From Atopobiaceae bacterium (GTDB lineage: Bacteria > Actinomycetota > Coriobacteriia > Coriobacteriales > Atopobiaceae): a stretch of 59,572 bases of DNA. The position numbers and the translations under genes are program-made. Numbering within the stretch: the stretch's first letter is position 1; every line of letters begins with the position of its first letter. Below are positions 40,541 through 44,527 of the stretch, one piece after another. The notes beneath the pieces were generated by a model that saw nothing but the letters and a program-made list of their open reading frames with translations, was not told the DNA's origin and ran no database searches. The DNA lies in NCBI GenBank assembly GCA_017459605.1, contig JAFUCQ010000011.1, positions 1 through 59,572 of the forward strand, read 5' to 3'.

Positions 40541-41578
40541 ATGAGCAAGTCGACAACAATTCGTTCGTCAGACAAACAGGGCGATTCTCATGGTGTCGCA
40601 AACACTGCTGAGCCTGTAATGATGCACCGGCCTCGTGCGCTCAATTCGCCCGAACTTACGCCGCGTCTCGTTGCAGATACAAAGGCGATGCCCGCTATTG
40701 AGCCGCCCGAACTTACGCCGCGTCTCGCTGCAGATACAAAGGCGGTGCCCGCTATTGAGCCGCCCGAACTTGCAGCAAAGTTCCAAGCGCTTCTCGATTA
40801 CTTCCTCGCCAAAAAGGAACAAGGCATTGGCGTTGCTTTTTCAGGAGGAATAGACTCAACCCTTGTGCTTTGGGCTGCTCATCAGGCGCTTGGGGATCGC
40901 GCACGTGCTTACAACGGTGTTGCCTCGATTTTTCCCTCGTATGAGACCGATGAAGCGCGCGAGTTTTGTAAGGAACACAATATCGCTTACACAGCTGTTG
41001 TGCTCAATCCGCTCGAGATAGAGGGATACCGAGACAATCCTCCTGAGCGCTGCTATATCTGCAAACACATGATTTTCTCGACTCTGATAGAACAAGCCGC
41101 GCGTGATGGTTTTGCCGTGATAGTTGACGGTACTAACGCAGATGACAATGCCGACGACCGTCCGGGTATGAAAGCCCTCGTTGAGCTCGGTGTACAGAGT
41201 CCGCTCAAAGAGCTGGGCATTGCTAAGGCTGAGATTCGAGAACTTTCTCGACTGCTGGGGCTTCCATGCTGGAGCAAAGGAAGCTTTGCATGTTTGATGA
41301 CACGCTTTGGCCAAGGACAGCATATAAGCGACGATATGTTGCTTATGGTTGGAGAGGCTGAGAGCTACCTCTATGAATTGGGCTTCACGCAGTTTCGGGT
41401 TCGCTGGCACGCAGGAAATCTTGCCCGCATTGAGCTCGGCGATCAGGATATGAAACGCATGCTCGACCCAGCACGTATGGAAGACATCAACCATCAGCTC
41501 AAAGAACTCGGCTTTTCTCAGGTGACCCTCGATTTGGGTGGCTTTGTCAGCGGTTCTATGGCGAGACCAGCTGTCTGA
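40541..41578 (+). CDS. larE: LarE-like ATP-dependent sacrificial sulfur transferase
   Basis: A 345-residue PP-loop protein. The ATP pyrophosphatase motif SGGIDSTLV is near residue 105. ERCYICKHMIF and SKGSFACLMTRF follow; the Cys in the second matches the LarE sacrificial sulfur donor. LarE helps make the nickel-pincer cofactor of lactate racemase, and LarB/LarC/LarA are not seen here. The N-terminal ~80 residues are not part of the family and hold about 2.5 copies of a 20-residue unit (PELTPRLAADTKAVPAIEP), from a tandem DNA duplication at about 40650-40780. The following gene starts 16 bases downstream. Confidence 0.8.
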   Translation: MSKSTTIRSSDKQGDSHGVANTAEPVMMHRPRALNSPELTPRLVADTKAMPAIEPPELTPRLAADTKAVPAIEPPELAAKFQALLDYFLAKKEQGIGVAFSGGIDSTLVLWAAHQALGDRARAYNGVASIFPSYETDEAREFCKEHNIAYTAVVLNPLEIEGYRDNPPERCYICKHMIFSTLIEQAARDGFAVIVDGTNADDNADDRPGMKALVELGVQSPLKELGIAKAEIRELSRLLGLPCWSKGSFACLMTRFGQGQHISDDMLLMVGEAESYLYELGFTQFRVRWHAGNLARIELGDQDMKRMLDPARMEDINHQLKELGFSQVTLDLGGFVSGSMARPAV

Positions 41579-41594: not shown

Positions 41595-42776
41595 ATGAGC
41601 AAGCGCGCACCGTCTGACGCATCGACTTACACTGAGGCACTACAGGACGCTAACTCACCCCAGCACGCCGCACCACAGCGCACCGCGGCGCCCCAGCACG
41701 CCGCCGTGCCACAACACGCAACAGCGCCCCAGCGTACAACAGCGTCCCAACACAGTGACGCACCCCAGCGTACAACAGCGCCACAACTCAGCAACGCGCT
41801 GTACTACATATACATTATCCGCTGTGAAGACAACTCGCTCTATACCGGCATTACCACCGATATCGTGCGACGCCTGTCCGAACACCGAAGCCAGAGTTCT
41901 CGCGCGGCACGTTACACGCGGACACACAAAGCAACAGAGCTGTGTGGATTGTGGACGGCTCCAAATCGAGCCAGCGCAAGCAAGCTCGAATATCGCATCA
42001 AGCAGCTCAGCCGCCCAGAAAAAGATAGGCTTTTAGAGATGCCAGACGCAGTTGGTGAACCCTATCGAGCACTTCCGTCGGTGCATTTTCGCCATGTGTG
42101 GGCTCAGGCGTTGATGGCATCCGGCGAGTCCGTCTACGTTGCTGCTCGTGATGACGAGCTGACATATCTCAAGGAGAAGGACGCTCAACTCGCCGAGGTT
42201 ATCAAGACGCTTGGTCCACTTAAGCGACAAGTTGACCCAAATCTCTTCACATCAGTGGTAAATAGCATCGTTGGCCAGCAAATATCGTCAAAGGCGCACC
42301 AAACAGTATGGGAACGCTTACTAAACAGCTGTGGCGAAATAAGCCCCGCTACCCTCTTGTCTCTTGGGCAAGATAAGCTCTCGTCGCTCGGCATGAGTCA
42401 GCGCAAGGCAAGCTACATTCTCGATTTTGCGTCAAAAGTTGATAGCGGACTCTTTGATCTCGACGCAGTATCTCAAATGGACGACAAAGAAGCGATTGCT
42501 GCCCTTGCCTCCCTTCGAGGCATTGGTGATTGGACCGCAGAGATGACCTTGCTCTTTTGTTTACAGCGTCCCAATATCCTGAGCTTTGGAGACTTTGGCA
42601 TTCAAAAGGGCATGCGCATGGTCTATCACCACAGAAAGATTGACCGCGCACGTTTCGATCGTTACCGCAGACGTTTGAGTCCGTATTGTAGCGTTGCGAG
42701 TCTCTACTTTTGGGCAGTGGCAAACGGGGCTATCCCTGACATGAAAGACTATGCGCCAAAGAAAAAGCGCCCGTGA
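41595..42776 (+). CDS. GIY-YIG nuclease fused to AlkA-type DNA glycosylase
   Basis: The ATG at 41595 (GAGAG upstream) gives 393 residues. Residues 1-70 are PQHA/PQRT tandem repeats. A YhbQ/Slx1-like GIY-YIG domain spans about 72-155: YIYIIRC, YTGITTD, catalytic-type Arg in RRLSEH and Glu in SKLEYRIKQLS. From about 205 to 385 comes a HhH-GPD base-excision glycosylase: SIVGQQISSKA, helix-hairpin-helix LRGIGDWTAEM, and the Asp of FGDFGIQKGM matching the AlkA catalytic Asp. A single protein with glycosylase and nicking-type nuclease domains suggests coupled removal of alkylated bases and strand cleavage. That coupling is inferred. Confidence 0.85.
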   Translation: MSKRAPSDASTYTEALQDANSPQHAAPQRTAAPQHAAVPQHATAPQRTTASQHSDAPQRTTAPQLSNALYYIYIIRCEDNSLYTGITTDIVRRLSEHRSQSSRAARYTRTHKATELCGLWTAPNRASASKLEYRIKQLSRPEKDRLLEMPDAVGEPYRALPSVHFRHVWAQALMASGESVYVAARDDELTYLKEKDAQLAEVIKTLGPLKRQVDPNLFTSVVNSIVGQQISSKAHQTVWERLLNSCGEISPATLLSLGQDKLSSLGMSQRKASYILDFASKVDSGLFDLDAVSQMDDKEAIAALASLRGIGDWTAEMTLLFCLQRPNILSFGDFGIQKGMRMVYHHRKIDRARFDRYRRRLSPYCSVASLYFWAVANGAIPDMKDYAPKKKRP

Positions 42777-42981: not shown

Positions 42982-44376
42982 ATGGAACAGCTCGACCTCA
43001 ATGCACTTATCACTAAGTCCTACGAGATTTGCGACGCCCTCACCGATGCTAACGTGGGCAAACTTCGCGACGAGCATCGCAAGCTCAAAAAGATACTCCA
43101 CAACGACTTGGTGACGTTTGGGGCTTATCTGGCAGAAGAAGACGGAACAGTGAGTGCTGAGGAAGTTGAGTTTATCTGCTCGACGCTCGAGCTCGACGAG
43201 AGCGCGTATATTACTAAGCAGCTCCGACAAGGAAAGACCGATACCTCACCTGCAGAATCAACGCCCTTCTCGCTCAAGTACGCAATTTTGTCGGATGCGG
43301 GCGGCAAACTCACCCCCGACCCGTTCAAAGCTCAGGCTTCGTCGGTGTTCTACGACACGTTCAAGGTTTTTGGCGAGACGTTTTTGTCGCTGCGCTCTCA
43401 TGAGGTGACCAACCGCGAGGCGAGTCGTTTTACCTCCTACATGCAGCGCATGAAAGCCATGCTCAAGGAGTACAGCGTATGGCGCACAGGAGCGCAAAAG
43501 TCCTACCAGATTAAAGGCGCTGCAGCTACGGGGCAAGCGCCAGTAGAAAACGAGCGTGAGCTCGAGGAGTTGCTCGCCGAGTTGGCATCGCTCATTGGAC
43601 TTGAGGGCGTGAAGCACCAAGTCAACATCATGGTGAATCTCATTCAGGTGCAGCGTATGCGTGAGGCGCAAAACATGAAAGTGGCAGACATTTCCAAGCA
43701 CATGGTGTTTCTTGGCAATCCGGGCACGGGAAAAACAACGGTCGCGCGCATGCTTGCCAGTATTTACCGAGCACTTGGCGTGCTGCGTACGGGTCAGCTC
43801 GTTGAGGTTGACCGATCGGGGTTGGTGCGCGGATACATTGGACAGACTGCAACGCGTACGCAAGAAGTTATTGAAGAGGCCCTGGGCGGTGTGCTTTTTA
43901 TTGACGAAGCCTATGCGTTGACGGTTGACAAAAGCCAAGGTGACTTTGGGCAAGAGGCTGTTGATACGCTGCTCAAAGCCATGGAGGACCACCGCGATGA
44001 CCTTGTGGTCATCGTAGCAGGCTATACTGACCTCATGGAGCGTTTCTTAGACTCAAATCCTGGTCTTCGTTCGCGATTTGGTACGAGTATTCACTTTGAC
44101 GATTACAGTTCAGATGAGCTTTTTGCCATTCTTGAGCAGAACCTCAATAAGCAGGACTACCACCTTTCACCTGCGGCAAAGAAACGCGCGCGTGCTCTCA
44201 TTAAGGTTCGCGTGACCGATAAACCTGAGAACTTTGCAAACGCACGAGATATTCGAAACTTCATGGAGCGAGCCATCGCTAACCATGCGGTGCGCGTGGC
44301 AAATCTCAAGGATGCAAAGGAAAGTGTCGAGATTTTGAGCACTATCGAAGCAGATGACCTTGAAGATTGGGAGTAA
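42982..44376 (+). CDS. AAA ATPase of the CbbX/SpoVK type
   Basis: A 464-residue protein. The N-terminal ~185 residues resemble a TerB-like helical domain (FGAYLAEEDGTVSAEEVEFI). The AAA domain follows: Walker A GNPGTGKTT, pore-type loop RSGLVRGYIGQT, Walker B VLFIDEAYAL, sensor VIVAGYTD and Arg fingers NPGLRSRF, ending with a lid (ARDIRNFMERA). The ATG follows CAGGAAAGG. Relatives remodel protein complexes; the partner here is unknown. A tandem TACAACCAG repeat begins right after the stop codon. Confidence 0.88.
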   Translation: MEQLDLNALITKSYEICDALTDANVGKLRDEHRKLKKILHNDLVTFGAYLAEEDGTVSAEEVEFICSTLELDESAYITKQLRQGKTDTSPAESTPFSLKYAILSDAGGKLTPDPFKAQASSVFYDTFKVFGETFLSLRSHEVTNREASRFTSYMQRMKAMLKEYSVWRTGAQKSYQIKGAAATGQAPVENERELEELLAELASLIGLEGVKHQVNIMVNLIQVQRMREAQNMKVADISKHMVFLGNPGTGKTTVARMLASIYRALGVLRTGQLVEVDRSGLVRGYIGQTATRTQEVIEEALGGVLFIDEAYALTVDKSQGDFGQEAVDTLLKAMEDHRDDLVVIVAGYTDLMERFLDSNPGLRSRFGTSIHFDDYSSDELFAILEQNLNKQDYHLSPAAKKRARALIKVRVTDKPENFANARDIRNFMERAIANHAVRVANLKDAKESVEILSTIEADDLEDWE

Positions 44377-44379
44377 CAG

Positions 44380-44527
44380 CTACAACCAGTACGAACAGTA
44401 CAACCAGTACAACCAGTACGAACAGTCCAGCCAGCTACAACCAGTACGGACAGTACAACCAGTACGACCAGCCTCAACCAGTACAACCAGTCCAGCCAGC
44501 TACAACCAGTACAACCAGTACAACCAG
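44380..44527 (+). repeat. Tandem 9-bp TACAACCAG repeats after the AAA gene
   Basis: About 14 imperfect units of TACAACCAG/TACGAACAG follow the stop codon directly. One base off the ATPase frame they read as Tyr/Asn/Gln repeats (SYNQYEQYNQYNQYEQ). In the ATPase frame, after the stop, they read QPV/STTS units. Confidence 0.75.

Follow-up and report, generated by a model that had tools for sequence, protein, structure and literature searches.

Fusions of a DNA glycosylase with a GIY-YIG domain have a precedent in MJ0613 and MMP0538 of two Methanococcales, in which endonuclease III is joined to a COG1833 GIY-YIG domain and cooperation in base excision has been suggested (Dunin-Horkawicz et al. 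2006, PMC1564403). The same authors warned that domain mobility may account for many GIY-YIG fusions, particularly those with a single occurrence. In the MJ0613 type, the endonuclease III-type glycosylase, itself an AP lyase, is N-terminal, and the COG1833 domain with its His/Cys-rich tail is C-terminal.

UPF0213/YhbQ/YazA GIY-YIG proteins (1zg2, 1ywl), of which YhbQ has been grouped with Slx1 (PMC7017083), are free-standing in the relatives examined, with lengths of about 80–150 aa. AlkA2-type glycosylases, including 2yg8 of D. radiodurans, 2h56 of B. halodurans and S. pombe Mag1, are usually free-standing proteins of about 210–240 aa. Slx1 and HIGLE, the closest relatives of this GIY-YIG lineage with a characterised structure, cleave branched DNA, and single-strand-specific enzymes have reportedly been described in recent work on the YhbQ/UPF0213 GIY-YIG family. 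We know of no AP-site activity in the Slx1/YhbQ lineage.

The window, the whole 59,572-nt stretch of DNA analysed here, comes from a gut-type actinobacterium and contains a gene that joins members of these two families, with the GIY-YIG nuclease N-terminal and the HhH-GPD glycosylase C-terminal. Like the MJ0613 type, it combines a GIY-YIG domain with an HhH-GPD glycosylase in a single polypeptide; unlike that type, it has the reversed order, an AlkA-type glycosylase and a UPF0213/Slx1-type nuclease, and it falls outside the MJ0613 type. The pairing of AlkA-type and UPF0213-type domains is new, whereas the idea of pairing a glycosylase with a GIY-YIG domain is not. An earlier note on this DNA knew of no characterised example, and the literature searched likewise yielded no experimental study of any AlkA-GIY-YIG protein.

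Fusion gene and neighbouring genes

The fusion gene (41595..42776, forward strand) runs from an ATG at 41595 to a TGA at 42774–42776 and encodes 393 residues with no internal stop. Both Pfam domains, PF01541 and PF00730, score over their cut-offs within this uninterrupted frame, which bears out the GIY-YIG–AlkA fusion proposed in the earlier note. Codon usage favours the annotated frame, which scores best along most of the gene and through the junction of the halves. Translation and conserved residues confirm 41595–42776 as a real in-frame fusion in which both active sites are predicted to be intact. No second copy of either half, that is, no other UPF0213-like or AlkA2-like gene, was found in the host genome.

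The N-terminal residues 1–64 (41595..41786, forward strand) form a low-complexity tail rich in Pro, Gln, Ala, His and Thr. It contains an in-frame alternative start, GTG at 41706 (V38), and tandem DNA repeats at 41708–41799. Such repeats are frequent in the window: 46 were listed within the 60 kb, between 368 and 52775, many of them inside coding frames. Others lie close by, at 40647–40771 in the N-terminus of the upstream gene and at 44381–44527 just after the downstream gene.

The upstream gene encodes the sulfur transferase LarE (40541..41578, forward strand; TIGR00268, 275 bits) and ends 16 bp before the fusion gene, a spacing from which the two are probably co-transcribed. Downstream lies a gene for a CbbX/SpoVK-like AAA ATPase (42982..44376, forward strand; NCBIfam and Pfam matches). 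Neither LarE nor the AAA gene adjoins the relatives' glycosylase copies in the stretches compared.

Nuclease half, glycosylase half and their junction

The GIY-YIG domain occupies approximately residues 68–150 (41796..42044, forward strand). PF01541 matches residues 70–142 with 55.7 bits against a cut-off of 22.6 (E 6e-15), and sequence searches against solved structures retrieved the UPF0213 protein 1zg2 (E 5e-16) and 1ywl. The active-site codons are those of Y73 (41811), Y83 (41841), R93 (41871) and E132 (41988), together with G85 and H97. Y73, Y83-x-G85, R93, H97 and E132 are invariant across the 21 nuclease sequences aligned, and all are present in the fusion. The AlphaFold2 model of this half has a pLDDT of 92.9, and its closest structures are Slx1-Slx4 and UPF0213. 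By sequence, fold and active-site residues, which it has in common with UPF0213/YhbQ/YazA proteins, the N-terminal half is a GIY-YIG domain of the UPF0213/YhbQ type (Slx1 lineage) and a predicted nuclease; it differs from its relatives in being joined to a glycosylase. In the tree, this half is sister to free-standing copies from the host's own family with support of 95/90, a grouping that led us to reject a recent horizontal origin.

The glycosylase half begins at M174 (ATG at 42114; 42114..42773, forward strand), near the position at which its free-standing relatives begin. PF00730 (HhH-GPD) matches residues 222–349 with 52.2 bits against a cut-off of 26.2 (E 9e-14), and the best solved structures are 2h56 of B. 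halodurans (E 3e-28) and D. radiodurans AlkA2, 2yg8 (E 3e-26). The Pfam and structure matches of both halves are far beyond what chance would predict, and by sequence the C-terminal half is an AlkA-type HhH-GPD glycosylase closest to these two proteins. In the two-domain model, the second half matches the AlkA2 (2yg8/2h56) and Mag1 folds, with the C-terminus of the glycosylase at low confidence because the alignment is thin. The likeness to the AlkA2 type extends over the whole half, including the HhH motif and the catalytic Asp; the difference is the nuclease at its N-terminus. In the tree, this half lies among Coriobacteriia and Clostridia relatives. Raoultibacter timonensis (Eggerthellaceae; L037) has one of the closest glycosylases, and the same glycosylase also occurs in genomes of the host's order, which places the host in the Coriobacteriia.

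The HhH motif, LRGIGDWTAE, includes W313, and the catalytic Asp is D333 (codon 42591–42593). Both columns are invariant in 32 glycosylase sequences, two of them distant, and both residues are present in the fusion; with the nuclease residues given above, this agrees with the intact catalytic residues that the earlier note had read in both domains. We take the W313 column, as known from endonuclease III, to be the catalytic Lys position of bifunctional HhH glycosylases. The Lys of the endonuclease III/OGG1 motif is replaced here by Trp, as in all relatives aligned, so the glycosylase half is expected to be monofunctional, its product an intact AP site that needs a nuclease. From its relatives 2yg8, 2h56 and Mag1, it is predicted to excise alkylated bases.

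The nuclease might serve another step than that cut. Its structural proximity to Slx1-Slx4 and UPF0213 is consistent with Slx1-like cleavage of flap or single-stranded intermediates in later repair instead of the abasic site, with the glycosylase acting as a recruiter to damaged DNA, and a role in double-strand break repair has been predicted for prokaryotic members of the Slx1-like GIY-YIG lineage (PMC1564403). Bacterial members of the lineage are hardly characterised in the literature searched, and we regard this role as very improbable.

Between the two domains, residues 151–175 (42045..42119, forward strand) correspond to the C-terminal tail and helix of the family's free-standing GIY-YIG proteins, as seen from an alignment with same-family homologues and from the model, which places a helix at residues 162–175. 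In the free-standing proteins of the same bacterial family, the terminal tail contains a conserved Trp, and the fusion retains this tail (DAVGEPYRALPSVHFRHVWAQAL), including W169, before the glycosylase. From the alignments, the join is end to end, between two full-length halves with almost no linker. The sequence TGATG (42112..42116, forward strand; within TTGATGG) carries a TGA in the +1 frame that overlaps the in-frame ATG of M174. It may be a relic of an older overlapping stop-start gene pair that a small indel or the loss of a stop turned into one gene, and it may also be due to chance.

The same motif, the position of M174 at the start of free-standing glycosylases and the draft state of the assembly (144 contigs) would fit two separate proteins in life, produced either because an indel of sequencing or assembly origin merged overlapping genes or because translation restarts at M174 to give a separate glycosylase. 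In-frame homology of the nuclease tail extends to about W169, so such an artefact would need its indel within the last few codons; the rest of the window is tiled by long intact frames. As for restart, only a weak AGG precedes M174. Two separate products are considered unlikely.

Distribution among genomes

Searches with the whole protein for further cases of the fusion covered about 1,470 genomes and found none. There is no second case among 140 genomes of the host's family, which include no other genome of its genus, and none in 398 genomes of its class or 396 of its phylum. It was likewise missing from 391 genomes of the class to which a Clostridia genome belongs and from 295 of that of a Proteiniphilum genome. 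Short exact peptides, a method limited to close relatives, were also matched against 84,980 species genomes and gave no other fusion, and none was present in the plasmids, phages and viral contigs searched. The fusion is lineage-specific and known from one draft genome. A conserved fusion family is accordingly rejected for now. Several matches with long frames, including L055 (match from residue 96), L109 and L119, are free-standing glycosylases preceded by open frames, not GIY-YIG fusions.

In relatives, the two halves are separate, unlinked genes. In genomes where both were listed, they were never neighbours, being separated by tens of kb or placed on different contigs, which leaves an ancestral operon of both genes unsupported. 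The earlier note had named as evidence against the fusion homologues with separate halves together with a frameshift at this site: separate genes were found in every relative examined, and no frameshift interrupts the assembled frame.

A fusion known from one genome provides no evidence that selection has favoured it. This singleton status, the two full-length halves without a linker, the TGATG at the junction and the grouping of the GIY-YIG half with same-family free-standing copies are what a recent neutral fusion of two neighbouring genes, by stop loss or a small indel, would leave behind, and single-instance GIY-YIG fusions may be accidental (PMC1564403). The domains would then keep independent jobs with no hand-over, the nuclease on single-stranded or branched DNA and the glycosylase on alkylated bases. 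Such a history fits less well with two genes never seen side by side in relatives, with a biochemically sensible pairing of domains and with a fused frame that retains intact residues in both halves. Accidental fusion with independent halves is the simplest competing view and almost as likely as functional coupling.

Possible functions and related repair fusions

The reading we tentatively prefer, at a probability of about 0.4, is that two complete ancestral proteins fused end to end most likely form an excision enzyme with two activities. An alkylated base would be flipped out and removed by the glycosylase domain through D333 chemistry, and the tethered nuclease would then cleave a phosphodiester bond within the abasic strand so produced or close to it, which would lessen the dependence of the cell on a separate AP endonuclease. 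We infer expression as one protein with both activities, of which the abasic-site-directed cut is especially conjectural. The single frame, the conserved residues, both domains over their cut-offs and the model and fold matches speak for two activities, as do the invariant Trp with its expected intact AP site, the lack of a second copy of the halves, the unmatched endonuclease IV and the fusion of the same glycosylase to other repair domains in relatives. Against it stand the singleton status, a lineage without known AP-site activity, the unlinked halves in relatives and the absence of a linker.

The repair background of the genome bears on the need for such an enzyme. Exonuclease III is present (L077, TIGR00633). 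Endonuclease IV (Nfo) gave no match in the host genome with either the PF01261 model or a relative's protein (L137, TIGR00587), in an assembly that is 89% complete; it may lie in the absent 11%, which also weighs against the two-activity reading. A PF01261 protein occurs in 58 of 61 family genomes (51 of the 52 more complete ones), a model that also covers sugar isomerases, a further point against the two-activity reading, with the best match confirmed as endonuclease IV in two relatives. Compensation for a lost AP endonuclease is a hint, not evidence, and it is distinctly unlikely that the GIY-YIG domain replaces an endonuclease IV lost in the lineage by cutting the AP site that its AlkA partner generates.

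If the self-contained reading is true, the protein would be, to our knowledge, the first AlkA-type glycosylase to carry its own hydrolytic strand-cutting domain, and its GIY-YIG domain the first to act as an AP endonuclease. With coupled activities, this one protein would be a base-excision enzyme acting on alkylation damage and would give a handle on the targets of the widespread, little characterised YhbQ/UPF0213 nucleases; uncoupled activities would mean an ordinary accidental fusion.

Other Coriobacteriia carry glycosylases of the same family joined to another repair domain, with the partner, a methyltransferase or the Vsr mismatch endonuclease, at the C-terminus. AlkA2-type glycosylases with a C-terminal O6-methylguanine methyltransferase (Ogt/MGMT) were found in several Coriobacteriia of two families, at L005:895-2172 and L061:1483-2835 by Pfam and in L063, L067 and L068 by reading the sequence. 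An AlkA2-type glycosylase with a C-terminal Vsr endonuclease (TIGR00632, 112 bits; PF03852) is encoded at L013:1480-2601 (G022:C3:56247-57365) and is a singleton among the 140 family genomes, in most of which Vsr-like domains are otherwise separate genes. A possible reversed order, with an Ogt-like domain before AlkA2, was observed at L110:632-1867, where the Ogt match is weak and below the cut-off.
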